Positions 4,220 through 63,441 of a stretch of 64,000 nt of DNA are shown piece after piece. Position 1 is the first letter of the stretch; each line of letters opens with the position of its first letter. This stretch comes from a virus. The stretch lies in the IMG/VR virus record IMGVR_UViG_3300046660_000488, positions 514,293 to 578,292 of that record. The stretch is one strand, 5' to 3'. The notes below the pieces were generated by a model, which saw nothing but the letters and a program-made list of their open reading frames with translations, had not been told where the DNA came from and searched no databases. A program made the position numbers and the translations under genes.

Positions 4220-4226
4220 CCAACAT

Positions 4227-4303
4227 GTAGCCGTAGCTCAGTCTGGTAGAGCGCCTGCCTGAAAAGCAGGGCGTCGGTGGTTCAAATCCACCCGGTTGCA
4301 CCA
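4227..4303 (+). tRNA. tRNA-Phe(GAA), first
   Basis: Acceptor GTAGCCG/CGGTTGC, anticodon loop CTGAAAA in a CCTGC/GCAGG stem, T-arm with GTTCAAATC, A plus CCA. A second Phe tRNA and a PheRS-like gene lie downstream. Confidence 0.92.
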
Positions 4304-4304
4304 T

Positions 4305-4871: not shown

Positions 4872-4893
4872 CTGGTTTTCCAAATTCAATATT

Positions 4894-4903
4894 TGGTTAA
4901 CCA
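4894..4903. promoter_or_regulatory. palindromic control site TGGTTAACCA
   Basis: 10-base palindrome upstream of the HNH gene, just before tRNA-Pro(GGG) on the other strand. Confidence 0.5.
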
Positions 4904-4907
4904 CTTT

Positions 4908-4984
4908 CAGGGCGTAGCGCAGCATGGTAGCGCACTTGGTCGGGAACCAAGGGGTCGCAGGTTCAAATCCTGCCGTTCTGACCA
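4908..4984 (+). tRNA. tRNA-Pro(GGG)
   Basis: Acceptor CAGGGCG/CGTTCTG, D-arm GCGC type, anticodon loop TCGGGAA in a CTTGG/CCAAG stem, T-arm with GTTCAAATC, A plus CCA. Confidence 0.9.
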
Positions 4985-5003
4985 TTTCGCCTACGGGCAT
5001 TAT

Positions 5004-5080
5004 CTATGTGTAGCTCAGTCTGGTAGAGCGCTGCTTTCGGGAAGCAGAGGCCGCAGGTTCAAATCCTGCCACGTAGACCA
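5004..5080 (+). tRNA. tRNA-Pro(CGG), first
   Basis: Acceptor CTATGTG/CACGTAG, anticodon loop TTCGGGA (G37, normal for Pro) in a CTGCT/AGCAG stem, T-arm with GTTCAAATC, A plus CCA. Confidence 0.9.
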
Positions 5081-5103
5081 AAACACCGGCCACGAGCCAT
5101 CAT

Positions 5104-5180
5104 CTGAGTGTAACGCAGTCTGGTAGCGTGCCTGTTTCGGTAACAGGAGGTCGCGGGTTCAAATCCTGCCACTCAGACCA
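5104..5180 (+). tRNA. tRNA-Pro(CGG)-like with T37
   Basis: Acceptor CTGAGTG/CACTCAG, D-arm AACGC, anticodon loop TTCGGTA in a CCTGT/ACAGG stem, T-arm with GTTCAAATC, A plus CCA. The loop reads CGG but position 37 is T, not the G (m1G37) that Pro tRNAs normally need to hold the reading frame. Identity is likely but function may be altered. Confidence 0.75.
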
Positions 5181-5299
5181 ATTTCCTCGAACGAGGATAC
5201 GACTTTGGGAAGCTGACCGTTCCAGTGAGTTCGGCAGGGATGACCACCCGGCAGCTAGGCCTCGTCAGCCCGGCATGTCAGGCTAACCCAATTGACCAC

Positions 5300-5376
5300 G
5301 GTGCTGTAGCTCAGTCTGGTAGAGCAGCGGGCTCATAACTCGCTTGTCGCAGGTTCAAATCCTGCCAGCACCACCA
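5300..5376 (+). tRNA. tRNA-Met(CAT), third
   Basis: Acceptor GGTGCTG/CAGCACC, elongator-type D-arm GCTC/GAGC, anticodon loop CTCATAA in a GCGGG/CTCGC stem, T-arm with GTTCAAATC, A plus CCA. Elongator Met or Ile2 (modified CAT); these cannot be told apart here. The spacer 5181-5299 shows no gene. Confidence 0.88.
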
Positions 5377-5382
5377 ACCTTC

Positions 5383-5457
5383 GGGTGATTAGCTCAGTGG
5401 TAGAGCGCTGCTTTCACACGGCAGAGGTCACTGGTTCAAGCCCAGTATCACCCACCA
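5383..5457 (+). tRNA. tRNA-Val(CAC)
   Basis: Acceptor GGGTGAT/ATCACCC, anticodon loop TTCACAC in a CTGCT/GGCAG stem, T-arm with GTTCAAGCC, A plus CCA. With Val(TAC) and Val(GAC), all Val codons can be read. Confidence 0.9.
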
Positions 5458-5480
5458 AGAAAAAGGGGCCGAAGCCCCCT
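5458..5480 (-). terminator. terminator of the minus-strand gene at 5486
   Basis: On the minus strand GGGGC-TTC-GCCCC is followed by TTTTTC. It also marks the boundary with tRNA-Val(CAC). Confidence 0.75.
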
Positions 5481-5485
5481 GATCC

Positions 5486-5728
5486 TTACTCTTCGACGTA
5501 CTGGATTTCTCGCCAAAAATCTCCGGTCGGCGTCACGGTAAAACCACCGGTGTTGGAGACGATCCTGACGTAATGTTCTGCCAGTTCGAGCACGGCCGTT
5601 TCGAGATAGCGGCCGTCGTCTTCGGTGGTGGACGTCAGAACGACCGTGCCGGTCGTGTTGAGCGGATCGAGCGCACCGGCGCGAACGGTGTCGAGCAACG
5701 CTTCGAAGTATACGTCGTAAGTAGCCAT
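5486..5728 (-). CDS. hypothetical protein, 80 aa
   Basis: The ATG at 5728 is preceded by an AAGGA ribosome site. The product is acidic with beta-type segments (TVVLTSTTEDD, IVSNTGGFTVT). No family recognised. It is a single-gene unit closed by its own terminator, inserted antisense between tRNA-Val(CAC) and tRNA-Thr. Confidence 0.72.
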   Translation of the reverse strand: MATYDVYFEALLDTVRAGALDPLNTTGTVVLTSTTEDDGRYLETAVLELAEHYVRIVSNTGGFTVTPTGDFWREIQYVEE

Positions 5729-5803
5729 GAAATGTGTCCTTGAAATGGGTTTAGTATCCAGCCACAAGGATAGCACTGGCCGCTTATTATAAGCAAAATA
5801 TAC

Positions 5804-5879
5804 GCCGCCTTAGCTCAGTTGGTAGAGCGCGTCCTTGGTAAGGACGAGGCCACGGGTTCAAGTCCCGTAGGTGGCTCCA
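5804..5879 (+). tRNA. tRNA-Thr(GGT)
   Basis: Acceptor GCCGCCT/AGGTGGC, anticodon loop TTGGTAA in a CGTCC/GGACG stem, T-arm with GTTCAAGTC, discriminator T and CCA. Confidence 0.92.
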
Positions 5880-5893
5880 TTTTCCCTCCTGAT

Positions 5894-5968
5894 GCCGGGG
5901 TAGCTCAGGGGTAGAGCAGCGGGCTGAAAATCCGCGTGTCGGAGGTTCGAATCCTCTCCCCGGCACCA
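5894..5968 (+). tRNA. tRNA-Phe(GAA), second
   Basis: Acceptor GCCGGGG/CCCCGGC, anticodon loop CTGAAAA in a GCGGG/TCCGC stem, T-arm with GTTCGAATC, A plus CCA. It differs from the first Phe tRNA in acceptor and D-arm, so it is not a recent duplicate. Confidence 0.92.
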
Positions 5969-5969
5969 T

Positions 5970-6044
5970 GGTCGCGTAGCTCAGCGGGAGAGCGTCCCCT
6001 TGACGTGGGGAAGGTCGCAGGTTCAATCCCTGCCGCGACTACCA
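5970..6044 (+). tRNA. tRNA-Val(GAC), second
   Basis: Acceptor GGTCGCG/CGCGACT, anticodon loop TTGACGT in a TCCCC/GGGGA stem, T-arm with GTTCAATCC, A plus CCA. It starts one base after tRNA-Phe and is the last tRNA before the PheRS-like gene. Confidence 0.88.
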
Positions 6045-6074: not shown

Positions 6075-7171
6075 ATGGGGTTCAGCCGCTAAGTCCAGAG
6101 AGCCTTCAACGGTATCTGGCGATCAAAGACCTAACTGACCCGGCGACGGGTAAACACGCAATCAACGTTGTCCTCCAGAAATTGACGAAGGCGGTCCAAG
6201 ACTGGGCGGGTTTACACCCGGAAGTCCTGCGTTCCTCCCCAATCGTTTCCATCCAAGACAATTACGACCGCCTCTACTATGAGGCGGACGCTGTCGCACG
6301 CTCGTCGCGCTATTCGCATTATGTGGATGACACCCACATCTTGCGGACGCACACGACGGCGGCCGTGCCCGGCTATCTGCGCGAGACCACGGACGACCGT
6401 CTGATGGTTCTGCCGGGCATCGTCTATCGCCGCGACGTCATGGACAAGATGCACGTCGGCGAACCACACCAAGTCGATCTGTGGATCGTCAAGCAGGCCC
6501 GCCTGCGGCGCCGCGATCTTGAGGCCATGATCTCGGCCATCATGACTGCGATCCTACCCGGCCGCGTGTACCGCTGCAACGAGACCATCCATCCCTACAC
6601 CGTCAACGGCCTTGAGGTCGAAGTGCAGGTTGGCGACCGTTGGGTCGAGGTCTTGGAATGCGGCGAGGCCCACCCATGGGTTCTGAACGACGCTGGGCTG
6701 TCTTCAGCCACATGGTCGGGACTGGCCATGGGCATCGGTCTGGACCGTCTGGTGATGCTCCTGAAGGGCGTGGAGGACATCCGGCTGCTACGGAGCACCG
6801 ACAAGCGCGTCTACGGCCAGATGCAGACCATGCAGCCCTATCTACCGGTCAGCGATCAGCCGAGCGCTAAGCGGGACCTGTCCATCGTCGTTGACGAAGT
6901 GGACATGGAACTGTTGGGCGACAAGGTCCGCACTTTGCTGGGCGACCGGGCCGAGTGGATGGAGGAAATCATCCACGTCGGCGACTACGGCTGGCACGAT
7001 GTTCCGGACGCTGCTCGCCAACGTCTGGGTATGGGGCAGGATCAACGGAACCTCGTTATCCGGCTGATCATGCGCTCGCCGACCCAGAGCATCCCTCGCG
7101 AGGTCGCAAACGAGGTCTACGCGCAAGTCTACGAAGGTCTGCATCAGGGCTCCACGGTCGGCTATCGCTGA
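6075..7171 (+). CDS. phenylalanyl-tRNA-synthetase-like single-chain enzyme
   Basis: About 365 aa. It has the class II synthetase core of PheRS: an N-terminal region with DNYDRL and ILRTHT, motif 2 as YRRDVMDKMHVGEPHQVDL, and motif 3 as GLAMGIGLDRLVML followed by EDIRLL. The C-terminal about 95 residues match the FDX-ACB anticodon-binding domain (KRDLSIVV onward). Catalytic plus FDX-ACB in one chain is the layout of mitochondrial PheRS and of PheRS-related proteins in some bacteria. It should charge tRNA-Phe; two tRNA-Phe genes lie upstream. Start problem: the only ATG with a ribosome site (GAAAGGA, ATG at 6075) is one frame off and meets a stop after five codons. ATGGGG allows a -1 slip on GGG into the long frame, whose family similarity begins at about 6083. 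Programmed shift, non-ATG start or a sequence error are all possible. Confidence 0.85.
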
Positions 7172-7193
7172 CCGTGGATGGTTCTGTGCCACC

Positions 7194-7199
7194 TAAATA
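7194..7199 (+). promoter_or_regulatory. late promoter TAAATA, leaderless
   Basis: With T4 spacing (element ending at -6), +1 falls on the A of the ATG at 7205. Confidence 0.65.
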
Positions 7200-7204
7200 G
7201 TTCC

Positions 7205-7594
7205 ATGGATCGTGAAGCCAAACTCGCTGAACTCATTGATCGCGTCAAGGATTTGCCGGACAAGGCGACCACGCGCGGATACACCTCATATCTGATCATC
7301 GTTCCCCATCATGACATGGCGGGCGACGTATCGATGGCCGTCTCTGAAGAATTCAGGGAATTTGGATACGGCGTTGACAAGGTGACGAAGTCTGAAGTTC
7401 GTGGAGACGAGTTTAGGGTCCTCGTGCGGCCCATCAGTGCTGCTGCGACGAACATCCACAACTTGACCTTCCACGTGTTCTGCATTCCGGGTGATGACGG
7501 ACTGACGGGTCATCAGAAGCAAACATTGCAGAAGATGCTTGAAGCGTTCAGCTACAAGGCACTGGAAACTGCTGATCTCCGCATCGTCTACTGA
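7205..7594 (+). CDS. late protein with prohead-tag-like N-terminus, 129 aa
   Basis: The ATG lies exactly where a T4-type late promoter at 7194 would start transcription, so the mRNA should lack a leader. No ribosome site is present. The N-terminus MDREAKLAELIDR contains LAE, which resembles the L/I-x-E cleavage sites of T4 prohead protease substrates. The rest has alternating beta and helical segments (YTSYLIIVPHHD, EFRVLVRP). No family recognised. A virion-internal role is inference. Confidence 0.7.
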   Translation: MDREAKLAELIDRVKDLPDKATTRGYTSYLIIVPHHDMAGDVSMAVSEEFREFGYGVDKVTKSEVRGDEFRVLVRPISAAATNIHNLTFHVFCIPGDDGLTGHQKQTLQKMLEAFSYKALETADLRIVY

Positions 7595-7600
7595 ATCTCG

Positions 7601-7628
7601 TTGACGAGATCGAAAATGTGTGCATAGT
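7601..7628 (+). promoter_or_regulatory. early-type promoter TTGACG-N16-CATAGT
   Basis: -35 at 7601-7606 and -10 at 7623-7628, spacer 16. It drives the gene at 7650 and probably the overlapping genes to 9676. Confidence 0.7.
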
Positions 7629-7649
7629 GCGATCCGAACAGGAGGCACT

Positions 7650-7865
7650 ATGGAAACTTGGGTTCTCGTAATCGTCGTGTGGATGTCGCCGAGCTTTAGC
7701 CATAGCGGTGGTTCTGGCGCGCTGGCGATCACCAACGTCCCCGGCTATGCGTCGTGGGACGAGTGCAATCGCGCGGCTGGCACGGTCTCCAAGAGCGGCG
7801 GAGAAACCAAGGGCTACTGCGTCCCCGGTCCCAAGACCATCGTCGTCAAGCCGAAGGGCAAGTGA
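7650..7865 (+). CDS. small protein with N-terminal hydrophobic segment, 71 aa
   Basis: ATG preceded by GGAGG. The N-terminus (WVLVIVVWMSP) is hydrophobic and may be a signal or anchor segment. Two Cys residues (WDECNRAAG, KGYCVPG) could form a disulfide outside the cytoplasm, and the C-terminus is basic. First gene after an early-type promoter; its stop overlaps the next start (TGATG). No family recognised. Confidence 0.7.
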   Translation: METWVLVIVVWMSPSFSHSGGSGALAITNVPGYASWDECNRAAGTVSKSGGETKGYCVPGPKTIVVKPKGK

Positions 7866-8833
7866 TGCACCCGACCCGCGACCGTCTCATCAAGATCATC
7901 GAGCGCACCGAGAACGAGATCGGCTCCGACGCGGCGGCCGACGAAATCCTCGCGCTGCTGCGTGAGCCGCCCAGAAACCACATGGACGTGGTCTGGCCGG
8001 ACGAGGACGAACTGAACGTTCGCCGGACCATGCTCATGGCCGACGTCGTCGCCTTCATCGCGCCCGAGGCGCGCAAGGATGGCAACGGCGGGTACGCGCC
8101 CTGCGACGATGCTGACATCCGGGCGCTGAACGCGCTCATCCGCGAAATCATCGACATGCGCTTCGTTCGAGACAGCGACCGTGGACAGGTCGTGGATTTC
8201 GCCACGGTCAACCGTCTCGAAAATCGCCTCCACACCTTCTACGAACCCCACTCGCCGGACATGCGGGACGAAGCCTCGCCTTCGGAGCGCACCGTCTACG
8301 CCATGCAGATCGCCACGGTCGCTGGGCTGATGGCCGCCGAGACCGGCCGCATGCTGAACCAACTGGGTCGTCGCATGCAGTTTCAAATCGAGGCCGACGA
8401 CAAGAAAGCCTTGCAGGACGCCGAAGCTCGCCGCGACATGGAGGCGGCTGAGCTTTTCGTCTCGCTGGTCTCGACCCGGCCGTTCCACCAATCGCTCTCC
8501 GACTATCGGTCGGCGGCGGCCGAGCTAGGCCCTCGCAACGAGGCGGTGAAGCTGATGCGCGACGCGCTGGCCAAGTCGATCCTGCCGGACACCGAGAACG
8601 CGGCCATCCACATCGACCGCTTGATCGACGAGAACAAGATGGACGAAGCCATCGCCGCTCTGGAGGATGGTTTCGACAAATGGTTCCGTGGCGCCTTCTC
8701 AGAGCAGCGTGAGCGCATCAACACCTACTATCGCGGACTTCGTGAGCGGGCGCGTCGCGCCAAGCTCCCGGCTGATCCGGCGTGGCAGATTTTCATTTCG
8801 CCGCAGGAACCCACGGGAGACCAGTATGCGTGA
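7865..8833 (+). CDS. hypothetical protein, 322 aa
   Basis: The ATG overlaps the stop of the previous gene. The protein is mostly helical and charged, with long predicted helices (for example around QFQIEADDKKALQDAEARRD) but no catalytic motif I can name. It overlaps the next start by eight bases, so it is translationally coupled in the 7650-9676 unit. Function unknown. Confidence 0.75.
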   Translation: MHPTRDRLIKIIERTENEIGSDAAADEILALLREPPRNHMDVVWPDEDELNVRRTMLMADVVAFIAPEARKDGNGGYAPCDDADIRALNALIREIIDMRFVRDSDRGQVVDFATVNRLENRLHTFYEPHSPDMRDEASPSERTVYAMQIATVAGLMAAETGRMLNQLGRRMQFQIEADDKKALQDAEARRDMEAAELFVSLVSTRPFHQSLSDYRSAAAELGPRNEAVKLMRDALAKSILPDTENAAIHIDRLIDENKMDEAIAALEDGFDKWFRGAFSEQRERINTYYRGLRERARRAKLPADPAWQIFISPQEPTGDQYA

Positions 8834-52203: not shown

Positions 52204-53879
52204 TGCGTTTTCGGGAGATCATCGCGGAGAAGCGTCGCAACGCTTCGGTGAACAAGAAAGAAAGCGGCCTGTCGCAACTCTTGAAGTACAAGGGGCAGGC
52301 CGACGTCTTCGTGTCTTTCACCAGCGATGTGGGTACTGCGTCCAATCCCACCGAAATCACCCCGCACGACACACAGACCGGCGTCCGCGCCAGAGGCGGC
52401 AACCACAACGCCCGTGGCTCGAAGATCGGCATCAATCCCCAGACCGAATTCGACACCCCGGTGGGCATCTACGCCTATCCGGTGGACTACGTCATCGAGA
52501 AGCAGACGCGGATGGAATTTGCCGCGTCACGCCCGTACATGTACGTATTCCGCGCCCAAGGCAACGTTCTCGATCTGCGCTCCTACACCGACGCCGACTT
52601 GAAGCAAGACGTCGCCAAGCTGATGAAACTCTACGATTTCTCGGAGAGCGAAGTTAAGCGCGCGATGCGTGACGCCACAACCCAGACCCCCGGTGGCCAA
52701 ATCTGGAACATCACCCGGATGGTTTCGATTGCCGTCACGAAGCGTGAAGAAGCCCGCAAGGGCTTCGACAACTACGACGAATACGAGCCGCAGGAAGATG
52801 ACTTCGATTCCTTCGAGGAATACGAAGCCGAGTACATGGACTGGGAGCAGAACAAGCCTAAGTCCAAGGTGAAGACCAAGGGCGACGCCGGGGAGGAAAC
52901 CGCCGCGCCGATGAAATGGAACACCGTCTGGCGAGCGCTCGGATATTCAGCGGTGATCGATCTGGATGGTCTCGGCATCATTCACGAGAACGAAGCCACA
53001 CAGGGCGTGTTCTTCAGCATCAAGTCCATCAAGGCTCTGGAAGTCATCGACAGCATCGACCCACAACCGGAATGGAAACTGACCCGTGTGTGGGCCGACA
53101 AGCCTGAGTTGTTCATCAGCCAGATGCAAAAGGGCAAGATCGCGCTCGAAGACATCATCGAGTTCATGAAAGAGCACGAGTACATGTTCTCGCATGTTCC
53201 GTTCGATGCGTTCCCCAACGATTTCAAGAAGTACATCTTCGCGCATCCGCTTGAATTCTTGAAGCGAAGCTACGCGATGCACCATGTGCCATTCCCTCCG
53301 GCAACCCAGATCATGATCATTGATCACGATCCGAGGCAGGTTCAGGCGTTGCACAAGCCGCTTGCCCGGCCGGTTCTGGCGTATATTGCCAAGAATTTCA
53401 GCCGGTTCGCGAAGGAAGTCCCAGAAGTCATCGACCGGCTCCCTCCCGCACAGCAGGTCGCTGAGATCACCAAGAACCCGGCCCTGATTACCTATCTGCC
53501 GGGGTCACCGACGATGGTTGCGGCGCCGGTTCTGGCGGCGATCATCGACATCGATCCGTCGTTGTTCATGCGGTACTACCATAGCTACGACGCTCCGAAG
53601 ATTCATCCTTCGGTGATCGCTAAATTCTACAAGCAAGTCGTCGTGCCTCGCAAGCACCAAACGCTGGAATTTCTGTCGCTGATCGCGTCGAAGTATCCGG
53701 CCGCGACGCTGGGTGCTTGTCTGGCGGTTACAGACAAAAGGACCGCCCGCGCTTTCTACAAGCTGGCGAGCGGCCCCATGGATGGAAATCTGGTTCAGAA
53801 GGATTGGACGCGGAATACGAGCAAGCCGCCGAGCATGCTGGCGAAGCTGATCCTGAAATACCGCCCCGATCTGGCTTAG
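52203..53879 (+). CDS. large late protein with MRFREIIAE tag, 558 aa
   Basis: ATG overlaps the previous stop. The tag MRFREIIAEKRRN fits the prohead pattern (IIAE or IxE variants). An N-terminal domain holds VFVSFTSDVGT, GSKIGINPQTEF and TPVGIYAYPVDYVIEKQTRM, a strand pattern that could belong to an enzyme domain; ART-like proteins have a similar order, but the key residues are not clear. The C-terminal 300 residues are helical repeats with many Pro turns. Likely injected with the DNA. Converges with the minus gene at 53876. Confidence 0.72.
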   Translation: MRFREIIAEKRRNASVNKKESGLSQLLKYKGQADVFVSFTSDVGTASNPTEITPHDTQTGVRARGGNHNARGSKIGINPQTEFDTPVGIYAYPVDYVIEKQTRMEFAASRPYMYVFRAQGNVLDLRSYTDADLKQDVAKLMKLYDFSESEVKRAMRDATTQTPGGQIWNITRMVSIAVTKREEARKGFDNYDEYEPQEDDFDSFEEYEAEYMDWEQNKPKSKVKTKGDAGEETAAPMKWNTVWRALGYSAVIDLDGLGIIHENEATQGVFFSIKSIKALEVIDSIDPQPEWKLTRVWADKPELFISQMQKGKIALEDIIEFMKEHEYMFSHVPFDAFPNDFKKYIFAHPLEFLKRSYAMHHVPFPPATQIMIIDHDPRQVQALHKPLARPVLAYIAKNFSRFAKEVPEVIDRLPPAQQVAEITKNPALITYLPGSPTMVAAPVLAAIIDIDPSLFMRYYHSYDAPKIHPSVIAKFYKQVVVPRKHQTLEFLSLIASKYPAATLGACLAVTDKRTARAFYKLASGPMDGNLVQKDWTRNTSKPPSMLAKLILKYRPDLA

Positions 53880-54202
53880 GCCGCCTTGGCGAAGAGCTTT
53901 TCGTAGGTCATCCAGTCGAACCGGCTGACGTTTTCGTAGAAATCGCCCGGCAGGGTGGCGATGTAATCGCGCACGGTCTGCTCCATGTCTTCCGGCACGC
54001 CGACGAACAGCGTCAGTTGGTAGGTCGTAGCGATCTCGCGCACGTCGCAGGCCGGAGCTTCGGTCAGGGCCTTGGCTTCGTCGAGGCGGCCGGTGAGGAA
54101 ATCCTTCGCGTCATTCACGTCCAGCAGGCAGATGCGGCAGACGGCGTCCAGCAGAGCAATCATGCGAGGGGTCGGGTAGTAGAACTTAACGTCGCGCGAC
54201 AT
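53876..54202 (-). CDS. hypothetical protein, 108 aa
   Basis: ATG at 54202 with GGAGA. Helical with four Cys in the first third (VCRICLLDV, PACDV). No family recognised. It lies opposite to its late neighbours, divergent from the gene at 54341. Confidence 0.72.
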   Translation of the reverse strand: MSRDVKFYYPTPRMIALLDAVCRICLLDVNDAKDFLTGRLDEAKALTEAPACDVREIATTYQLTLFVGVPEDMEQTVRDYIATLPGDFYENVSRFDWMTYEKLFAKAA

Positions 54203-54299
54203 GAATGGTTCTCCGTGCTGTTCCGATGACCTCAAGCTACCACAATATTTTCAATTTGCAAGTGGAAATGTTGAATCAGAAGAGAAAAGATCGCCAGCA

Positions 54300-54305
54300 T
54301 AAATA
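54300..54305 (+). promoter_or_regulatory. late promoter TAAATA
   Basis: CATAAATA, predicted start about 54311, leader 30 bases with TTGGAG before the ATG at 54341. Confidence 0.65.
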
Positions 54306-54340
54306 CAACACACAGACTGTGTTGGCTGCTTGGAGTAATC

Positions 54341-54628
54341 ATGGCTATCCGCGAGATTCGCGAACGAGCAATTCAGAAGCTCAAACCACTGAACGAACGT
54401 ATGGATCGTCAGTATGGGGTGAAGCTCGACCTGAATTCAGATCGCGACCATCTTCGGACGGTTTATGAGCACTACAAAGCTAAGCGTGAAACTATTCGCG
54501 CGAAGCTTGGCGAAGCAGCCGCCATCACAGACCCCGACTATGCCAAGGCCGTCTTCATCAGCGAGGCCGCCCGGCTATTTCTGCGGGAAATTTCGCCGAA
54601 GCGCATCCGCAAGAAAACCAAGAAATAA
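54341..54628 (+). CDS. small basic late protein, 95 aa
   Basis: ATG with GGAG. The start MAIREIRERA holds IRE-R, a possible prohead tag. Helical and very basic, ending KRIRKKTKK. The size, charge and position before a large acidic core-like protein recall the small prohead core proteins of T4, but no sequence link is claimed. Confidence 0.72.
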   Translation: MAIREIRERAIQKLKPLNERMDRQYGVKLDLNSDRDHLRTVYEHYKAKRETIRAKLGEAAAITDPDYAKAVFISEAARLFLREISPKRIRKKTKK

Positions 54629-54639
54629 CAGGAGCCATT

Positions 54640-56166
54640 ATGATTAAGAAGACCGTGAAGGAAACGGCTCAGGCCAAGGGTCTGGCTTTCCTCATCGAAA
54701 GCGAACTGGACAAGGCTGAGGTCGTCATCGCGGCCAAGGGCATCCTGTCCAAGCTGCAAGGCATGGCCGAAGACCTCGCCAAGATCGAGGCCGACGACAT
54801 CATGCCGATCCTCGACAACATGCGTCTGACCTTCGGGCCGGAACTGACCGACAGCTTCAACGACATCACGACGGCGAAAATTCGTCAGACGATGGAAGCT
54901 GTGAAGGGCGCCAAGGAAGCCATCACCCGCGAAGTCGGCCGTCTGGAGAACACGGTCAACGGCGAGCCCACCAACGATCTGGGCATGGGCGACGAAGGCA
55001 TGGGTATGGATGGCGACATGGCTGACGGTAGCTTCGATGCTCCGGAAGACAATGATCTCGACGTTCCGCCGATGCCTGACGCGGCTGACCCGGACGCGGT
55101 TCCGACCGCTGATCTCGCCGCTGGCGGCGAAGAAGGCCCCGACGCCGGTGGTCTGGCCGACGAACTGGACGCTGCTTTCGACAAGGAAGCGACCGCCGGT
55201 GGTGCTGCTGGCCGCGCCCGCAAGGAAAGCGCCATGGTCTCGCGCAACGTCAAGGCTCTTCGCGAATCGAAGAACCCGGACATGCTGATCTACGCTGCGT
55301 TCAAGCGCACGATGAAGGAAAGCCGCAAGATCGTCGAGTCCGCTCGCGCTGTGGCCAAGGCATTCGCCATCGACTTCGATGACGTCGCCACCATCGTGAA
55401 GGAACACGCTGTCAAGGAAAGCAAGACTCGTAAGGACGAGAAGGGCCGCAAGGACAAGAACGACGACCGCTCCGAGGATCGCAAGACCAAGAAGCGCGAA
55501 CGCCCCACGGACATCGACGAAGGCAAGACCTTCAAGGACGAGGAAGGCAAGACGTCGAAGAACAAGGACCGTTCGGAAGACCGCGCCACCAAGAAGCGCG
55601 AGCGTCCGAAGGACATCGACGAAGGCAAGACCTTCAAGGACGAAGACGGCAAGACCGACAAGAACAAGGATCGCTCCGAGGATCGCAAGACCAAGAAGCG
55701 CGAACGTCCTTCGGACCTCGACGAAGCCAAGAAGTCTTTTAAGGCTGGCGGCATCGCGGGTAAGCCGAGCGATGCACCGGTCGAAGAAAGCGTCCTGAAC
55801 CGTTTTCAGCCCCGTAAGGGTCTGAGCGACTTCCGCACCCGTCGCATCGACGTGGTGTCACAGGAAGACGGTACGGCTCGCGCCGTGAAGGATTACAACG
55901 ACCACGTCAATCGCACGATGGAAGTGCCGTATATCTACGCGATGGTGGACGGCGAAGCTCGCCAGTTCAACAGCCATTCCGGCGATCCCTTCATCATCCG
56001 CGTGTCGAAGACGATGCCGGAGCTTGTGAAGCGCTGGAACGGTGAAAACCTCAGCCCGCGTTGGCAGGTGAAAGTCGAGAATGGACAGGGCGTTGTGCCG
56101 CCCGACGTCAAGTCCGGCTTCATCGACGCTCCGGGTTATCGTTTCCTGCCACAACGGCCGCGATAA
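54640..56166 (+). CDS. repeat-containing late protein, probable prohead core component, 508 aa
   Basis: ATG with AGGAG. Domains: helical N-terminus (residues 1-110), an acidic Met/Gly/Asp zone (about 110-190), a helical segment (YAAFKRTMKESRKIVESARA), three tandem copies of a highly charged unit of about 34 residues (KNKDRSEDRKTKKRERP, DIDEGKTFKDEEGKT), and a C-terminal beta-rich domain of about 130 residues. The alternating acid/base repeat resembles scaffold or DNA-organising proteins. Expressed from the 54300 late promoter with its own terminator. Confidence 0.74.
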   Translation: MIKKTVKETAQAKGLAFLIESELDKAEVVIAAKGILSKLQGMAEDLAKIEADDIMPILDNMRLTFGPELTDSFNDITTAKIRQTMEAVKGAKEAITREVGRLENTVNGEPTNDLGMGDEGMGMDGDMADGSFDAPEDNDLDVPPMPDAADPDAVPTADLAAGGEEGPDAGGLADELDAAFDKEATAGGAAGRARKESAMVSRNVKALRESKNPDMLIYAAFKRTMKESRKIVESARAVAKAFAIDFDDVATIVKEHAVKESKTRKDEKGRKDKNDDRSEDRKTKKRERPTDIDEGKTFKDEEGKTSKNKDRSEDRATKKRERPKDIDEGKTFKDEDGKTDKNKDRSEDRKTKKRERPSDLDEAKKSFKAGGIAGKPSDAPVEESVLNRFQPRKGLSDFRTRRIDVVSQEDGTARAVKDYNDHVNRTMEVPYIYAMVDGEARQFNSHSGDPFIIRVSKTMPELVKRWNGENLSPRWQVKVENGQGVVPPDVKSGFIDAPGYRFLPQRPR

Positions 56167-56172
56167 ACAACA

Positions 56173-56202
56173 AAGGGGCCGCTCACCAGCGGCCCCTTCT
56201 TT
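56173..56202 (+). terminator. terminator after 54640 gene
   Basis: AAGGGGCCGCT/AGCGGCCCCTT 11-bp stem, 4-base loop, then CTTTCT. Confidence 0.85.
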
Positions 56203-56220
56203 CTATGAGTGCTGGAACCC

Positions 56221-56580
56221 ATGTACCTATTTGAACTCTTCGACGAACAGTCCTTGGACGTGACAGACAACATCAAGTCGTCGCTGATGGACATCCTGAC
56301 GCCGCTCGTGGCGTCGGAAGTGCCATTTGTCACGTTCAACCAGTTGATCGACAAGATGAACAGCAGCGGTACAGGTCTGTCCATCGACCGCGCTCTGATC
56401 ATGGACCTGCTGGACCCGGATAAGGTCAAGATGGTCAGCAAGATCGAGGGCGACCGCATCTACCTGACGTCGCCGGACGGCGCCGACCGCTCAGTGACGA
56501 AAGACGACGCTGTGAAGGATCAGGAGCACGTCTCGAAGATGGCCACGGACCAAGCGTCCAAGTCCATGGACAGCCTCTAA
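56221..56580 (+). CDS. late protein with LFE tag, 119 aa
   Basis: ATG at 56221 with GGA six bases upstream. MYLFELFDEQS contains LFE-L. The rest is a winged-helix-like fold (FNQLIDKMNSSGTGLSIDRA) and an acidic end. Its own promoter is not evident, so it may be read through the preceding terminator. No family recognised. Confidence 0.68.
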   Translation: MYLFELFDEQSLDVTDNIKSSLMDILTPLVASEVPFVTFNQLIDKMNSSGTGLSIDRALIMDLLDPDKVKMVSKIEGDRIYLTSPDGADRSVTKDDAVKDQEHVSKMATDQASKSMDSL

Positions 56581-57032
56581 TCCAGCACGACGCCTTCGAT
56601 GGCGACGATGACGCCGCGTTCGTTCAAACGCACCACGATCATTTCCGGGCGACGGAAATGCTCCATCACGAAATCCGGTGATTCCGGCGTGATCAGGTCG
56701 GCCTCGTAGGTCCGATCCTCGTCTTCATCCGCCCATACGCGCACCTGCGCGACGAAATCCGGATGCCACTTGCCGTTCACCCGATGAGCCCACAGTTGTC
56801 CGCGCGGATAGTGGAGGTGGCTGCGCTGTTCGACGCCATCGACGAATTCCCGGCCCACCAGATCGTTGAATGTCTCGATGATGTTCTCGTCTTCGATGCG
56901 CTGAAGCGCACGCAGGAGGGCGTCAGCTTCGATGATCTCGACCTCTCCCGACGTGGTTTCCACGGTCGTCGTCGCGTTCTTGATGATCGTGAACAGCGCC
57001 GCAGCCGTGAGGTTCACCGGAAGAAAAGCCAT
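56577..57032 (-). CDS. hypothetical protein, 151 aa
   Basis: ATG at 57032 with GGAGGTG. Acidic, with a helical N-terminal part and a beta-rich C-terminal part (MIVVRLNERGVIVAIEG). Convergent with the gene ending at 56580. No family recognised. Confidence 0.74.
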   Translation of the reverse strand: MAFLPVNLTAAALFTIIKNATTTVETTSGEVEIIEADALLRALQRIEDENIIETFNDLVGREFVDGVEQRSHLHYPRGQLWAHRVNGKWHPDFVAQVRVWADEDEDRTYEADLITPESPDFVMEHFRRPEMIVVRLNERGVIVAIEGVVLD

Positions 57033-57128
57033 CGAAGCACCTCCAAATATTGATCTCAAGTATTCATAGCACAGTTGCTGCGAAAAGCAAGCCAGAAAGA
57101 TATGGCGCTCAATTTTACCGGCGGAGTA

Positions 57129-57138
57129 CGGTTAACCA
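57129..57138. promoter_or_regulatory. palindrome-like site CGGTTAACCA
   Basis: One base off the TSGTWWACSA family, 29 bases before the exonuclease GTG. A GCCATTTCGTG follows, as at 18833. Confidence 0.5.
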
Positions 57139-57166
57139 TTGATTGACCCGTATTGGACGCCATTTC

Positions 57167-57913
57167 GTGATCCCGATTCTGAACGACTTCAAGTACGTAC
57201 GCCTCCAACGCAACACCGCTGACGATGGCATGCGTTTCTACACGTGTCCGGAAACGGGAGCATTTCTTCCCAGCGTCACCACCATCCTTGGCCACACCAA
57301 GGACAAGACCTTCCTGATCGAGTGGAAGAAGCGGATTGGTGAGAAAGAGGCCGACCGCATCCGCGACGAGGCGGGCAAGATCGGCACGCTGATGCACACC
57401 CACCTCGAAAACCACATCCAAGGCAAGCCTCGCCCCGGCGGCAACAACAAAATCCGGGTGCTGGCCGCCGGGCTGGCCGACACCATCATCGAGAAGGGTC
57501 TGTGCAAGGTCTCAGAGGCTTGGGGCTTCGAGGTCCCGCTGTACTTCCCCGGCATGTACGCGGGAACGACCGACCTCGTCGGCATCCACGAAGGCTCCCC
57601 CGCCATCATGGACTACAAGAACTCGCGGAAGATCAAGACCAAGGAGCAGATCGAGGATTACTTCTGCCAGTGTGCCGCCTACGCGCTGGCTCACAATTAC
57701 GCCTTCGGGACCAACGTCGCCAAGGTCGTGATCTTCATGGTGGACCGCGAACGCAACTTCAAGGAATTCGTCATCCAAGGCAACGAGTTCTTCAAATACT
57801 GCGACATCTGGATGAAGCGGATCGACCAATACGCGGCCACGGGCGGCGCGTTGCAGTTCAATCCGGGCGCCAATGTCAACGTCACATGGGTGGAGCCGAA
57901 CACCAGCGAGTAG
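57167..57913 (+). CDS. PD-(D/E)XK exonuclease, MGME1/RecB-like
   Basis: 248 aa from a GTG start. The nuclease core is clear: GTLMHTHLENHIQG (conserved Glu-type helix), YAGTTDLVGIHEGSPAIMDYKNS (Asp and D-x-K) and EDYFCQCAAYALAHN (Gln of motif IV). This layout is that of the mitochondrial MGME1-like and Cas4/RecB-like single-strand exonucleases found in T4-like phages. It probably processes ends or flaps during replication and recombination. Expression linked to the TSGTWWACSA-like site. Confidence 0.85.
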   Translation: MIPILNDFKYVRLQRNTADDGMRFYTCPETGAFLPSVTTILGHTKDKTFLIEWKKRIGEKEADRIRDEAGKIGTLMHTHLENHIQGKPRPGGNNKIRVLAAGLADTIIEKGLCKVSEAWGFEVPLYFPGMYAGTTDLVGIHEGSPAIMDYKNSRKIKTKEQIEDYFCQCAAYALAHNYAFGTNVAKVVIFMVDRERNFKEFVIQGNEFFKYCDIWMKRIDQYAATGGALQFNPGANVNVTWVEPNTSE

Positions 57914-57919
57914 TGGGGC

Positions 57920-57925
57920 TAAATA
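57920..57925 (+). promoter_or_regulatory. late promoter TAAATA
   Basis: GCTAAATA; predicted start about 57931, leader 19 bases to the ATG at 57950. Confidence 0.65.
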
Positions 57926-57949
57926 CAGGGTCAAGTTTTGGATGAACCC

Positions 57950-58543
57950 ATGTACGTTTTGATCAGCAAGTTCCAACTCCGTCGCGGACCAGAGGCTAAG
58001 CTTCCGGGCGCTCCGACTTCTTTGGAACCCCTGCAAATGAGCGCAGGTCTGGATAACGGTGAGGTCGCCATGACCGCCGATACCGGCCGCGTGTTCATCG
58101 GGCACATCCCAGCGCCGGGCGACGTCAACTATCGCCGGGCGGCCTTCCCCTACCAGAACATCGAAGTCCTGACCGAAGCGTCCCCGCGCATCCGCGAACT
58201 GATCAGCGAATTCACCCGCGATCAGGGCACGGATTCGTTCTATCTGCCGCTGCAAATCCAGTCGGACGGCAGTTACGCCGTCCCGACCGGCTATTCCGAT
58301 CCGACCGAAATCCCGAACGAGTGTTCGGCGACGTTCGAGTACCACGCCTTCGACGGCAACGGGAACCCGATGCAGCAAGGCGTCGTCCGAGCGGCCACGG
58401 GACTGGGTGTCTCGGCGACCGAAAAGATCGGAAGCGGCGTCACCTTCACCCTGACCCCCAACGGCTCGGTGACCAACCTAACGATCCTGCCGAACCAAAC
58501 CTGCATCATCTACCTTCGGCGGACCATCATCAACAGTGTCTAA
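57950..58543 (+). CDS. tail-fibre-type structural protein, paralogue of 59003 N-terminus, 197 aa
   Basis: ATG at 57950 (TTG 12 bases earlier is possible). The start ISKFQLRRGPEAKLPG is like the entry strand of many phage tail-fibre domains. The motifs EVLTEASPRIREL and SATFEYHAFDG recur in the protein at 59003 (EVLTEASPRVREL, SATFEYHAFSG), showing a duplication. It likely forms part of the tail-fibre or baseplate complex. Confidence 0.76.
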   Translation: MYVLISKFQLRRGPEAKLPGAPTSLEPLQMSAGLDNGEVAMTADTGRVFIGHIPAPGDVNYRRAAFPYQNIEVLTEASPRIRELISEFTRDQGTDSFYLPLQIQSDGSYAVPTGYSDPTEIPNECSATFEYHAFDGNGNPMQQGVVRAATGLGVSATEKIGSGVTFTLTPNGSVTNLTILPNQTCIIYLRRTIINSV

Positions 58544-59006
58544 AGTTTCGGTGAAAATCATGAACCCCTTCGTACTTGAGCCCAGTGCATTGCTGGCAGA
58601 GTGGAAGAAGCTTCGAGCAGACATGGCAGGCAAGCCTGACGTGGATCAACTGCACATGGTTATGGAATTCTGGTCGATGGCGCCACTCGTGAAGATCGCC
58701 TACGACCCGGAAGGCTTGGACACGTATCCCACTGCTTGGGAAATGATGAACTTCAACGACTGGTGCGAGAATTCCGTCGCAGTCGGCATGGAGTTTACGC
58801 TTCGTCTGGCTGGATGGTCTGCTGATCGACTGCGCGTCGTGATGCTGAAGGACTATGATGCTTCGATCCAGCGTTTGGTGCTCGAAGTCGATGGTAAATA
58901 CTACCTCAATTACGAATACCGTGAGGTGACGGAAATCCCGCAGACGAACCATTCGTCGCTGGAGATTTGGCAGTTCAACGGTCGAAAGTACCAGCGACTG
59001 ACATGA
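58536..59006 (+). CDS. hypothetical late protein, 156 aa
   Basis: GTG start overlapping the previous stop, or ATG at 58560 (148 aa). Helical N-terminal half with LAEWKKLRADMAGKP, then a beta-rich end (LVLEVDGKYYLNYEYREV). It sits between two fibre-type genes, so an adaptor or assembly role is plausible. No family recognised. Confidence 0.72.
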   Translation: MSKVSVKIMNPFVLEPSALLAEWKKLRADMAGKPDVDQLHMVMEFWSMAPLVKIAYDPEGLDTYPTAWEMMNFNDWCENSVAVGMEFTLRLAGWSADRLRVVMLKDYDASIQRLVLEVDGKYYLNYEYREVTEIPQTNHSSLEIWQFNGRKYQRLT

Positions 59007-60826
59007 CCATCACATCCGTCACGAAAATCCAGTTCTTCCCCATGACAGAGGGTGAATTCGCCGCAGCAGATGCTGGTCAGGCGATTTTCCTGACGGATAC
59101 CGCACGCATCGTGGTCGGCGCTGACCCGACCCACGGCAACCCCTACCACATCCGGGCGGCGGACAAGGAAAACCGTTTCCCGTTTGAGGCCATCGAAGTC
59201 CTGACCGAAGCGTCCCCGCGCGTACGCGAGCTTTACGGCCTGAACATCCGCAATACCGATCAGGCCGCCGCGCTGGCGCCGGTCGTCATTCCGGCCGGTG
59301 AGACGGTCCCGGCCGCGTACGCATACGTCTACGGTGGCCAAGCCATCCCGATCAGCTTCACCGGCAACATGTCGGCGACGTTCGAGTACCATGCCTTCTC
59401 GGGTGGCTCGCCAGCACAGACCGGCTTGCTCCGCTTGCTTGGTGGGTCCTCGCCGGTGTTCGCCACCAGCGGTGATGTCGGGACGTCCCTGACGTTCACG
59501 CTGGAGAGCATGGGCGACACCTGCACGATCATGTGCACCAACAACTCGGCCGATCCTGTTCGCCTGATTGTTCGCGCCACCATCATCATTCCGACGCTGA
59601 GCGAAGGCGGTCCGCCAGTCTCGACCGATCAGCCGCCGGTCTGGGGCACGACGGCAGGCCCGCTGGGCGAGTACGACGCTTCGGTCACCATCCAGTTCCA
59701 AGCCTCCGACCCGGAAGGCGAGCCGGTCACGTTCGCCGTATCGAATGGAACCTCCATTCCGAACGGCCTGACCCTGTCGAGTGATGGCCTGATGCTGGGC
59801 ACGGTTGTTCGCACCAGCGTCGAGGTCATCAACCACTTCACCCTGTCGGCCAGCGATGGCGTCAACACGGTCTACCGTGATTTCACCCTGACAGTTCCGG
59901 CCGCCGTGGTGCAGAACTTGCCGCCTGTCTGGCAGTCGCCGACCGCAGGCAATCTGGGATCGTTCACGCAGAACCAGCCGCTGAGCATTGCGCTGTTCGC
60001 GTCAGACCCGGAAGGCCAGAACGTCACCTACGTCTCGGCCTTCACCACGGGCGTCGAGGCCCCCTTCAGTTCGATCATTCCGGGCCTGACCCTAGACCCC
60101 GGCACGGCCACGATCAGCGGCACGCCGACCACGTCGTCTTCGTACAATTTCCGCATTTACGCCAGCGACCCGGCGGGCAACCGCACGTCGCGAGATTTCT
60201 CGCTGACGGTCGGCGCCCAGAACCTGCCCGCTGTCTGGACGACGACGGCCGGTGGCCTTGGATCGTTCGTCGAAGGCTCGGCCGTCTCGGTGCAGGTCAC
60301 GGCGACCGATCCGGAAGGCTTGGTGATCTCGTACTCGTCGCCCGATCTGCCGTCCGGTCTCACCCTCAACGCTTCGACGGGTGCGATTACTGGAACTGCC
60401 CCGGCTGTCAGCGGCACGTCCACCCTCAGCTTCACGGTCAACGCCGTGGACAACAGCGGCGTGCCGGTGGGTCGCCAGTTCTCGATTACGGTGCTCGACA
60501 CCGCGTCCCTGCCGAACTGCCCCTCGACCTATGCCGACATGACCATCACCGGTCGCCTGCTCGGGCAGGAGCCCCACCAGAACCTTCCGGGGTTCGGTTC
60601 TGGCACGGTCTGGGGGACGGCCACCTACGGCTACACCAACGATTCAAACATGTCGGCCGCAGCCGTCCACGCTGGCCTGCTTCAGGTGGGCGAGACGGGG
60701 GTTATCCGCTTCGCCCTAACCAACCCCGTCTACAAGACCAACTACCCTTCCAGCACCGCTCACGGGGTCACGACGACGCCTTGGGAGACCGGTTGGTGCG
60801 GGGTCACGCTGTCGCGCATTTCCTAA
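59003..60826 (+). CDS. tail-fibre adhesin with Ig-like repeats and LCCL domain, 607 aa
   Basis: ATG overlaps the previous stop by four bases. Residues 1-190 are paralogous to the 57950 protein. Then three Ig/cadherin-like repeats of about 100 residues each, marked by PPVWGTTAGPLGEY, PPVWQSPTAGNLGSF and PAVWTTTAGGLGSF, with inner ASDPEG and LTLSSDG segments (He_PIG type). The last about 100 residues match an LCCL domain (FGSGTVWGTATYGYTNDS, AAAVHAGLLQVGETG, two Cys). Such modules bind surface sugars or proteins, so this is probably a host-recognition fibre. Confidence 0.85.
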   Translation: MTITSVTKIQFFPMTEGEFAAADAGQAIFLTDTARIVVGADPTHGNPYHIRAADKENRFPFEAIEVLTEASPRVRELYGLNIRNTDQAAALAPVVIPAGETVPAAYAYVYGGQAIPISFTGNMSATFEYHAFSGGSPAQTGLLRLLGGSSPVFATSGDVGTSLTFTLESMGDTCTIMCTNNSADPVRLIVRATIIIPTLSEGGPPVSTDQPPVWGTTAGPLGEYDASVTIQFQASDPEGEPVTFAVSNGTSIPNGLTLSSDGLMLGTVVRTSVEVINHFTLSASDGVNTVYRDFTLTVPAAVVQNLPPVWQSPTAGNLGSFTQNQPLSIALFASDPEGQNVTYVSAFTTGVEAPFSSIIPGLTLDPGTATISGTPTTSSSYNFRIYASDPAGNRTSRDFSLTVGAQNLPAVWTTTAGGLGSFVEGSAVSVQVTATDPEGLVISYSSPDLPSGLTLNASTGAITGTAPAVSGTSTLSFTVNAVDNSGVPVGRQFSITVLDTASLPNCPSTYADMTITGRLLGQEPHQNLPGFGSGTVWGTATYGYTNDSNMSAAAVHAGLLQVGETGVIRFALTNPVYKTNYPSSTAHGVTTTPWETGWCGVTLSRIS

Positions 60827-60963: not shown

Positions 60964-63441
60964 ATGCGCGTTCGTAAGAGAAACGGTACTATCGAGGCCG
61001 TTGACCTCAACAAGATTGTCAACTCCATTTCAAAGGTCGTGTCAGACCTCGAAGACGTCGATGTATTCAAGGTCGCGACCAAGACGGTCGGCGGTCTTGT
61101 TGACGGCGTTTCGACCCGTGAACTCGACCTCCTGTCGATCCGCAACGCGGTCGGCCTCATCATCGAAGACCCGGTCTACTCCAAGGTCGCGGCACGTCTT
61201 CTGTCCAACTTCATCAACAAGGAAGTTGACGGCCAAGACATCCAGTCCTTCTCGCAATCCATTCAGATCGGCTACGACGAAGGCCTGATCAACGAGCAGA
61301 CCTACAAGCTCGTCATGGCCAACAAGCGCAAGCTGAACGCGGCCATCAAGATCGAGCGCGACTGGAATTTCGAATACCACGGCATCCAAACGGTTTACGA
61401 CCGTTATCTGCTGAAGCATCCCTCGCGCATCATCACGGGCGACGACGGCAAGAAGACCCGCGCCGTCATCGAGACGCCGCAGTACTTCCTGATGCGCGTG
61501 GCCTCCGGTCTGGCCAACGACGCCACCGAAGCGGTCGAACTGTACACCCTGCTGTCCAGCCTCGAATACATGACCTCGACGCCGACCCTGTTCAACTCGG
61601 GCACGAGCCACAGCCAGATGTCGTCGTGCTACCTGCTGGACAGCCCGCAGGACGATCTGGGCGACATCTACAAGCGCTACAGCGACATCGCCTCGCTGTC
61701 GAAGTTTGCTGGCGGCATCGGCGTCTCGGCGTCGCGCATCCGTTCGGCCGGTTCGCACATCAAGGGCACGAACGGCAAGTCGAACGGCATCGTTCCGTGG
61801 CTGCACACCCTGTCGGCTTCGGTCGCGGCGGTGAACCAAGGCGGCAAGCGCAAGGGCGCCGCCTGCGTCTATCTGGAACCGCACCACCCGGACATCATGC
61901 AGTTCCTTGAACTGCGCGACAACACCGGTGAGAAGGAAAAGCGCGCCTACAACCTGAACATCGCCAACTGGGTTTCGGACCTGTTCATGCTGCGCGTGAA
62001 GGCTGACGCCCTGTGGTCCCTGATCGACCCGGCCGCTGCTCCGGAACTGACCGACCTCTACGGCTCGGCCTACGAGGCTCGCTACCTCGAACTCGAAGCT
62101 GCTGGCCGTGTCGTCGAGCAAATCCCGGCTCGCAAGCTCTACGCGCGCATGATGCGTACGCTCGCGGAAACCGGCAACGGCTGGATGTGCTTCAAGGACA
62201 CGTCGAACCGTCGCGGCAACCAAGTCGGTGAAGGTGGCATCATCCACCTGTCGAACCTGTGCACGGAAATCCTCGAAGTCACGTCGTCAGGCAAGAAGGT
62301 TCGCCTGACCCGCGAGCAGATGATGTCCACCACGGCGGCCGAGATGGTCGAGAAGAACATCCGCATCACCGGCTTCAACGTCGCTGCGGACGAATTCGAA
62401 GCCATCGAAGGCATGGAGACGGCGGTCTGCAACCTCGGTTCGATCAACGTGGGTCGCGGCTACGTCAAGAACGGCAAGCTCGACAAGGAAAAGCTGCGGA
62501 AGAACGTCGCCATCGCGGTCAAGTACCTCGACCGCGTCATCGACCGCAATTTCTACCCGATCCCCGAAGCCGAGTCCTCGAACAACCGCTGGCGTCCGGT
62601 GGGTCTGGGCCTGATGGGTCTGGCCGATTTCTTCGCTCAACTGCGTCTGCCGTTCGAGAGCGACGAGGCTATCCGCCTTTCGGCCGAGATTCAGGAGGAA
62701 ATCTACTTCCAAGCCCTGAAGACCTCGAACGAACTGGCCAAGGTCCACGGTCCGCACCGCGACTTCGCGCTCACCCGCGCGGCCAAGGGTGAACTCCAGC
62801 ACGATCTGGCTGGCGTCGTTCCCAAGGACGAGGCCCGGTGGGAAGCTCTGCGTTCGGAGATCGTCGAGCACGGTCTGCGTAACTCGCTGCTGATCGCCAT
62901 CGCCCCGACCGCGACCATCGCCCACATCACGGGCGCTGAAGAGTGCATCGAGCCGATCAAGTCGAACCTGCTGAAGCGCGAAACCCTGTCGGGCGAATTC
63001 GTCGCGATCAACAAGCACCTCGTGGCCGATCTGAAGAAGCTGGGCCGATGGACGCCGGAGACCATCAACCGCCTGAAGGTGGACGAAGGGTCGATGCAGG
63101 GTATCGAGGGTCTTCCGGCCGAACTGTACGACCTGTACAAGACGGTCTGGGAAATCAGCCAGAAGAAGATCATCGAGCACGGCGCCGCCCGTGGCGTCTG
63201 GATCGACCAGTCGCAATCGCTGAACATCTTCATCGACCTGAACAAGTTCCCTGAAGACAAGCGCATCGGCGTCCTGTCGTCGGTCTACATGCTGGCGTGG
63301 GAAAGCGGACTGAAGACCACCTACTACTTCCGCAGCCGTTCGGGTTCGCGGATCGCGCAGGTGACCACTGACCGCCCGAGCATTGCGGTAGCCGCCCCGG
63401 TGGCTGCTGAAGAGCCGGAAGTGTGCGACGCCTGCATGTAA
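60964..63441 (+). CDS. nrdA: ribonucleoside-diphosphate reductase, large subunit (class I)
   Basis: 825 aa. An N-terminal ATP-cone (VRKRNGTIEAVDLNKIV) is followed by the barrel: SSCYLLDS (first redox Cys, about residue 222), LSNLCTEIL (radical Cys, about 432), AVCNLGSINVG (second redox Cys), and the end CDACM (the C-terminal CxxC that is re-reduced by thioredoxin or glutaredoxin). It turns ribonucleotides into deoxyribonucleotides for phage DNA. The NrdB radical subunit is not in this window. Strong terminator after it. Confidence 0.96.
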   Translation: MRVRKRNGTIEAVDLNKIVNSISKVVSDLEDVDVFKVATKTVGGLVDGVSTRELDLLSIRNAVGLIIEDPVYSKVAARLLSNFINKEVDGQDIQSFSQSIQIGYDEGLINEQTYKLVMANKRKLNAAIKIERDWNFEYHGIQTVYDRYLLKHPSRIITGDDGKKTRAVIETPQYFLMRVASGLANDATEAVELYTLLSSLEYMTSTPTLFNSGTSHSQMSSCYLLDSPQDDLGDIYKRYSDIASLSKFAGGIGVSASRIRSAGSHIKGTNGKSNGIVPWLHTLSASVAAVNQGGKRKGAACVYLEPHHPDIMQFLELRDNTGEKEKRAYNLNIANWVSDLFMLRVKADALWSLIDPAAAPELTDLYGSAYEARYLELEAAGRVVEQIPARKLYARMMRTLAETGNGWMCFKDTSNRRGNQVGEGGIIHLSNLCTEILEVTSSGKKVRLTREQMMSTTAAEMVEKNIRITGFNVAADEFEAIEGMETAVCNLGSINVGRGYVKNGKLDKEKLRKNVAIAVKYLDRVIDRNFYPIPEAESSNNRWRPVGLGLMGLADFFAQLRLPFESDEAIRLSAEIQEEIYFQALKTSNELAKVHGPHRDFALTRAAKGELQHDLAGVVPKDEARWEALRSEIVEHGLRNSLLIAIAPTATIAHITGAEECIEPIKSNLLKRETLSGEFVAINKHLVADLKKLGRWTPETINRLKVDEGSMQGIEGLPAELYDLYKTVWEISQKKIIEHGAARGVWIDQSQSLNIFIDLNKFPEDKRIGVLSSVYMLAWESGLKTTYYFRSRSGSRIAQVTTDRPSIAVAAPVAAEEPEVCDACM

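Follow-up and report, generated by a model that had tools for sequence, protein, structure and literature searches.

How a huge phage comes to encode a protein in which a conserved virion module is joined to an LCCL domain, and what such a protein may do for the particle, is the question raised by the locus described here. The locus lies in a 64,000-nucleotide stretch of DNA (the window, by which the whole stretch analysed is meant), comprising bases 514293-578292 of virus record IMGVR_UViG_3300046660_000488 and forming the final part of that record of 578,292 bases. The record contains a profile match to the T4-type major capsid protein Gp23 (E 3.9e-91; full capsid gene at 336193-337164 in record coordinates) and one to the large terminase (1.1e-21), which together indicate a huge tailed phage of the T4-like kind. 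A preliminary description of this DNA had proposed that a fibre gene was duplicated here, and that the larger copy carries three Ig-like repeats and a C-terminal LCCL domain as a likely receptor-binding tip. The features concerned, in window coordinates, are the following.

57143..57913, plus strand: exonuclease gene, the upstream edge of the conserved slot
57950..58543, plus strand: ORF1, 197 aa, N-module protein, homologue of the RaK2-like 'virion structural protein' (121Q gp31, GAP32_297)
58159..58189, plus strand: 31-nt stretch in ORF1, identical to 59191-59221 of ORF2
58560..59006, plus strand: small gene lying between the two ORFs; its homologues are Phosso gp474 and Atu_ph07 AUZ94842
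59003..60826, plus strand: ORF2, 607 aa, the additional paralogue, carrying Ig-like repeats and an LCCL tip
59003..59614, plus strand: N-module of ORF2, the part that is paralogous to ORF1 and presumed to be the virion anchor
59191..59221, plus strand: 31-nt stretch in ORF2, identical to 58159-58189 of ORF1
59621..59893, plus strand: Ig-like (He_PIG) repeat 1, limits approximate
59909..60208, plus strand: Ig-like (He_PIG) repeat 2, limits approximate
60209..60502, plus strand: Ig-like (He_PIG) repeat 3, limits approximate
60515..60823, plus strand: LCCL-family domain without the canonical cysteine pair
60964..63441, plus strand: nrdA, the downstream edge of the conserved slot

The ORF2 frame is open as far back as a TTG at 58967; the likelier start, however, is the ATG at 59003, which overlaps the stop codon of the small gene.

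Comparison with named phages indicated which of the two N-module genes is the resident one. ORF1 matched the structural protein gp31 of phage 121Q (E 1e-5) and gp472 of Phosso (E 6e-12); relatives of GAP32_297 occur in 43 phage records, and the kin of ORF1 are annotated as virion structural proteins in GAP32, RaK2, CBB and others. The small gene matched Phosso gp474 (E 3e-22) and Atu_ph07 AUZ94842 (E 2e-18). In GAP32, 121Q, PBECO4 and Erwinia phage Hallingskeid, the genes run in the order structural genes, exonuclease, hypothetical gene, (virion) structural protein, nrdA, so that the RaK2-like virion structural protein (GAP32_297, 121Q gp31; phrog_15647) is a homologue of ORF1 in the same exonuclease/nrdA slot. 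Unlike ORF2, however, it has no Ig or LCCL part, and no adjacent second copy is present in the annotated stretches of these four phages. The corresponding locus of Phosso and Atu_ph07 (gp472-gp474; AUZ94844-AUZ94842) has an N-module gene and the same small gene, as found here, but with an extra gene between the two that bears no similarity to ORF2.

The same arrangement was then seen on a larger scale. Two scans of IMG/VR with N-module alignments returned 16 and 22 loci, together 31 distinct kin records; in the stretches fetched, an exonuclease lies upstream of the N-module in 27 of the 31, and nrdA is likewise present in 27. The small gene and nrdA were both visible in 20 kin, 19 of which have no N-module gene between them, including those nearest by nrdA identity (84.5, 83, 78 and 77%). 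The sole exception is L027 (516.8 kb), where a 194-aa N-module gene, without Ig or LCCL, is found at this position. Judged by these comparisons, related phages share the gene order exonuclease - ORF1 - small gene - nrdA, and the rarity of a paralogue before nrdA (1 of 20 kin) marks ORF1 as the conserved gene and ORF2 as an extra, lineage-specific one. Other irregularities were noticed at the locus in the kin: the nrdA match is split over two frames in L130 (6166-9348) and L133 (6109-9962), perhaps by an intron, intein or frameshift, and L131 has another insert, a 633-aa frame (6427-8328) that separates the N-module gene from the small gene and by eye resembles a subtilisin-type protease followed by Ig-like repeats.

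That ORF1 and the N-terminal part of ORF2 are paralogues is shown by the alignment of the two. Over the first ~200 residues of ORF2, 66 of 177 positions are identical to ORF1 (37%, E 3e-22), and the alignment score of 213 compares with a maximum of 59 over 2,000 shuffles of the ORF2 N-terminus; these were the only two N-module copies found in the whole record. The paralogy that had been read from the shared EVLTEASPR and SATFEYHAF blocks is thus well founded, and the blocks themselves are real down to their codons. IEVLTEASPR, which falls inside the 31-nt exact DNA match, uses the same codon at 10/10 positions (4.5 expected from codon usage) and SATFEYHAF at 8/9 (4.9 expected), while the remaining 47 identical residues share the codon at 26 (22.3 expected). 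It is to be noted that this test was post hoc (P 2e-4 for the first block); the codon identity may possibly reflect gene conversion. Shared ancestry of ORF2 with the second N-module gene of L027 was also considered and was not adopted, as all four inner branches of the tree were open and one or two duplications both fit.

The part of ORF2 that follows the N-module was recognised as Ig-like with little ambiguity. Three stretches matched He_PIG (PF05345) at 99.6 bits against a cut-off of 24 (whole-protein E 1.4e-28), in agreement with the three repeats described earlier, and they are mutually 39-45% identical. He_PIG is frequent in this record, with 47 matches, most of them in very large frames (3593, 3286, 2222, 1874, 1178, and 695 aa); the giant Ig-repeat proteins at 204531-213455, 228540-232790, 283080-286990, 53791-58551, and 265904-266869 (record coordinates) are candidate main adhesins.

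The C-terminus of ORF2 scored above the curated cut-off of the LCCL family (PF03815; E 1.2e-5, 25.8 bits against 22.6), and in a search of the whole record ORF2 was the only match, at 29.2 bits. A profile of bacterial LCCL domains (78 rows, from which the phage row, L042 and L095 were left out) gave ORF2 54.9 bits (E 6.6e-16), compared with 8.1 bits for the best of 1,000 shuffled ORF2 domains and 5.7 bits for the next of 559 window frames. An LCCL alignment that did include the phage row (70 of 81 rows, 11 near-copies or cut rows being omitted) yielded a profile that matched the cochlin LCCL domain (3.2e-19) and Rxt3 (7.5e-11) in the PDB. The LCCL motif, given as YxxxSxxCxAAVHxGVI with a conserved histidine in a review (PMC10892792), reads YTNDSNMSAAAVHAGLL in ORF2, in which the histidine is kept and the cysteine is absent. 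We therefore assign the C-terminus of ORF2 to the LCCL family in the broad sense, as had been claimed from the letters. Structure prediction led to the same fold. The predicted tip (pLDDT 80.8, pTM 0.75), a helix between two sheets, superposed on the cochlin LCCL domain (1jbi) with Z 9.4 and rmsd 2.2 over 86 residues, and Foldseek alone placed it with cochlin LCCL at E 4.1e-3 and probability 1.00; the model was built from an alignment of LCCL relatives, so that the fold match depends on the sequence match. Of the 403 chains compared, only three more reached a Z of 2 or above, all of them Sin3/HDAC (Rxt3) entries; Rxt3 itself scored Z 8.3. By profile and by model, the tip would therefore belong with cochlin LCCL and the bacterial LCCL proteins, but it differs from them in lacking the canonical cysteine pair, in being joined to a phage module, and in that no signal peptide could be seen by eye at the start of ORF2. 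Rxt3 resides in an intracellular complex; it is a chromatin complex subunit, and a function in common with ORF2 is not expected.

The missing cysteines proved to be a property of a small set of sequences. Among 80 rows (L043, identical to L042, having been dropped beforehand, and L095, cut by a contig end, being kept out of both the rows and the tree), 75 have both canonical cysteines, none has just one, and five have neither, namely the phage, L042, L044, L045 and L052. In ORF2 both sites are occupied by other residues, and its two other cysteines lie close to either end of the domain. On this count the phage domain falls in a rare group without the canonical pair, and is not predicted to be a canonical disulfide-bonded module. 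We infer that the loss suits a protein that folds in the cytoplasm, a reducing compartment; that the LCCL fold can exist under such conditions is shown by its chromatin-complex relative Rxt3.

As to where the domain came from, the preliminary description had called LCCL a fold better known from eukaryotic extracellular proteins. The family assignment stood, but not the emphasis on eukaryotes, because 116 stretches of the bacterial and archaeal collection matched the pattern when it was scanned, and 91 of these encode LCCL relatives. The 79 loci that were retained come from Myxococcota, Pseudomonadota, Actinomycetota, Acidobacteriota, Chloroflexota and Nitrospirota, among other phyla. Plasmid rows L016-L018 served in alignment A2 only. 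In a tree from the short alignment, the phage row grouped with L042 (95/80), beside L044 and L045 (85/87), on long branches that leave the placement unsure. A eukaryotic origin was set aside, the nearest LCCL rows being bacterial or from a virus-labelled contig, with eukaryotes represented by PDB sequences and Pfam only; so widespread an occurrence in bacteria makes a bacterial source likelier. The virus-labelled contig is L042, whose LCCL row is the closest to that of the phage; its frame (1990-4422) has a SUEL lectin domain N-terminal of the LCCL domain, Thr-rich stretches and a hydrophobic C-terminus, and the N-module is absent.

Further phage copies were sought widely. In the viral contig collection, neither ORF2 nor its LCCL domain found a relative when scanned as a single sequence, the 70-row LCCL alignment produced one pattern match but no relative, and a 4-row LCCL alignment recovered L042 and L043, which are identical stretches. 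In public phages, tblastn with the phage LCCL domain gave one chance-level match (E 8) and with two bacterial LCCL domains none at E 1, searches that remote copies could escape. LCCL was found in 0/31 IMG/VR kin records (11 in a first search and 20 in a second), many of them fragments, and not in Phosso. The first search did detect LCCL in the record of L042, and for the second the positive control was a separate run of the same search, which detected it in 3/3 bacterial genomes. Titles and abstract openings in the literature yielded no phage LCCL protein. The combination thus appears to be a modular phage adhesin, a known kind, with an LCCL tip not met before in the searches made.

A domain seen in one genome only calls for the question of whether its joining to a phage gene might be an artefact of assembly or recombination, by which a bacterial gene was fused to a phage gene. 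Some 3 kb separate the LCCL end from the terminus of the record, and ORF2 has a G+C content of 64% compared with 58% in the window, as such an accident would predict. However, the frame is intact, both of its flanks match kin, its start overlaps the upstream stop as described above, the window letters contain no N, and G+C is alike in the N-module (63%) and the Ig part (65%), all of which make the artefact extremely improbable.

If ORF2 is a genuine gene, its role is best approached through the N-module, since the same module carries other C-termini in the kin. Most kin proteins are short, about 200-240 aa. In others, the N-module is followed by a pectate-lyase-like domain (L030, with Mtd_N above cut-off), by a pectate-lyase-like domain and CBM_5_12 (L034), by CBM_5_12 in four stretches (L039), or, in the 1,224-aa protein of L132 (Mtd_N above cut-off), by a weak CBM_4_9 match and a collagen-like GPVGPTGPTGPAG run. 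L026 has three neighbouring N-module copies with different ends, the L131 repeats resemble tail fibre by eye, and one gene of the corresponding Phosso locus is annotated as tail fiber. These huge-phage proteins (L030, L034, L039, L132) share with ORF2 the N-module followed by a large, exchangeable C-terminus, differing in that their tips are pectate-lyase-like, CBM or collagen-like and that of ORF2 is LCCL. The simplest reading of such architectures is that the N-module would anchor to the virion a range of exchangeable tips, many of them directed at sugars, and they favour the fibre or adhesin interpretation put forward earlier.

Other evidence on the module is less uniform. The match of ORF1 to phrog_15647 (virion structural protein) was weak (E 0.23), while 6/12 rows of an N-module alignment matched it, the best at E 1.2e-110; the alignment consisted of chosen rows, of which two are the window sequences and 10 belong to loci of the first IMG/VR scan (7 of its 16). 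For Mtd_N (PF18454), ORF1 scored 16.3 bits, below the cut-off of 26.3, and ORF2 gave no match, so that neither is counted as a member of that family. Mtd of Bordetella phage has such an N-terminus, weak in ORF1 and above cut-off in L030 and L132 as noted, and a tip of the C-type lectin fold. The Mtd tip is diversified by a retroelement, unlike the LCCL tip of ORF2, whose record lacks a reverse transcriptase; a target of a diversity-generating retroelement was accordingly rejected (RVT_1, 0 matches in the record; 3/14 control genomes positive in the same search). The predicted fold of ORF1 had no significant match in the PDB. For residues 91-197 of the model (pLDDT 65.5), the best match was T4 gp9, the long tail fibers connector (Z 7.2), followed by phage tailspikes; with Z under 8, this likeness is suggestive, a lead only.

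A serious, if unlikely, alternative is that ORF2 decorates the head or the tail shaft, its Ig-like and LCCL domains being weakly and generally sticky to glycans, mucus or particles, with the true receptor-binding proteins elsewhere, e.g., among the large He_PIG proteins. The PHROGs category of the ORF1 family is head and packaging, and most of the He_PIG matches are in other, much larger frames, as this alternative would have it; the kin proteins built on the same N-module, on the other hand, resemble spikes and fibres. The CBB orthologue, which is CBB_302 by inferred gene order, does not appear in the CBB mass-spectrometry table (PMC5259590), and this, like the PHROGs category, speaks against a simple tail reading.

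We consider it somewhat more probable than its contraries that ORF2 is a lineage-specific virion adhesin, consisting of a duplicated ORF1 module, Ig-like spacers, and an LCCL domain that would touch the host envelope. In such a scheme, the gene for the conserved virion protein would have been duplicated into the gap before nrdA, and to the copy would have been added three Ig-like spacers and an LCCL domain that probably came from bacteria. ORF2 would be fixed to the particle by its N-module, the Ig repeats would hold the tip outward, and the LCCL domain would contact the host envelope, perhaps at a glycan of the surface, be it the lipid A/core of LPS or a different one, by analogy with animal LCCL domains. 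Five elements of this picture are read from the sequences themselves: the gene was duplicated, ORF2 has the architecture described, its tip is of the LCCL family, the gene slot is conserved, and the C-termini on the N-module are exchangeable in kin.

The LCCL domain as a receptor-binding tip is plausible by analogy. Animal LCCL domains bind bacteria, as described for Akhirin (PMC12839204), and the review (PMC10892792) speaks of LCCL proteins interacting with bacterial cell wall components and cites a title stating that both LCCL domains of CRISPLD2 have high affinity for lipid A. Against this, glycosaminoglycans were not bound by the isolated cochlin LCCL domain (PMC9987951). The named phages with ORF1 kin have mostly Gram-negative hosts according to their records, which makes LPS a possible target. 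The most specific version, in which a huge phage took a bacterial LCCL domain, dropped its cysteine pair for cytoplasmic folding, and placed it on a duplicated fibre as a receptor-binding tip that recognises the lipid A/core of LPS, is quite unlikely as a whole; if true, the same fold would grip Gram-negative cells in a virus and in animal innate immunity.

It is also conceivable, and in our estimate very unlikely, that ORF2 is not directed at the host at all, being a duplicated structural part whose added domains make intra-virion contacts or are functionless passengers. The absence of LCCL from all 31 kin records implies that the domain is dispensable to the group, and no ligand is known for the ORF2 tip. 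That the LCCL form is known from one genome only also weakens the adhesin reading, in which selection would keep the tip. Nonetheless, the 607-aa frame is intact, and the LCCL motif (YT.DS...AA.VHAG) has been kept in a fast-changing tip, which argues against a passenger.

With the adhesin reading, LCCL would join the set of phage tip domains, and the locus exonuclease - N-module - small gene - nrdA would be a site at which huge phages swap adhesins while keeping the anchor, which helps in annotating host-recognition proteins in uncultivated huge phages. An LCCL domain without the canonical disulfide would also suit expression in laboratory E. coli, for testing bacterial ligands of LCCL domains.

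Several features away from the locus deserve mention. A second, partial Gp23-like match with a TGA inside it was found just upstream of the terminase gene (434398-434676, record coordinates). A cluster of 24 predicted tRNA genes occupies window positions 1260-6044, with several anticodons repeated and some of the genes overlapping open frames. Lastly, a 102-bp tandem repeat of 2.8 copies (window 55453-55732) lies inside a virion-protein-like gene (54640-56166); in its L027 homologue, the equivalent middle region contains charged repeats of another kind.
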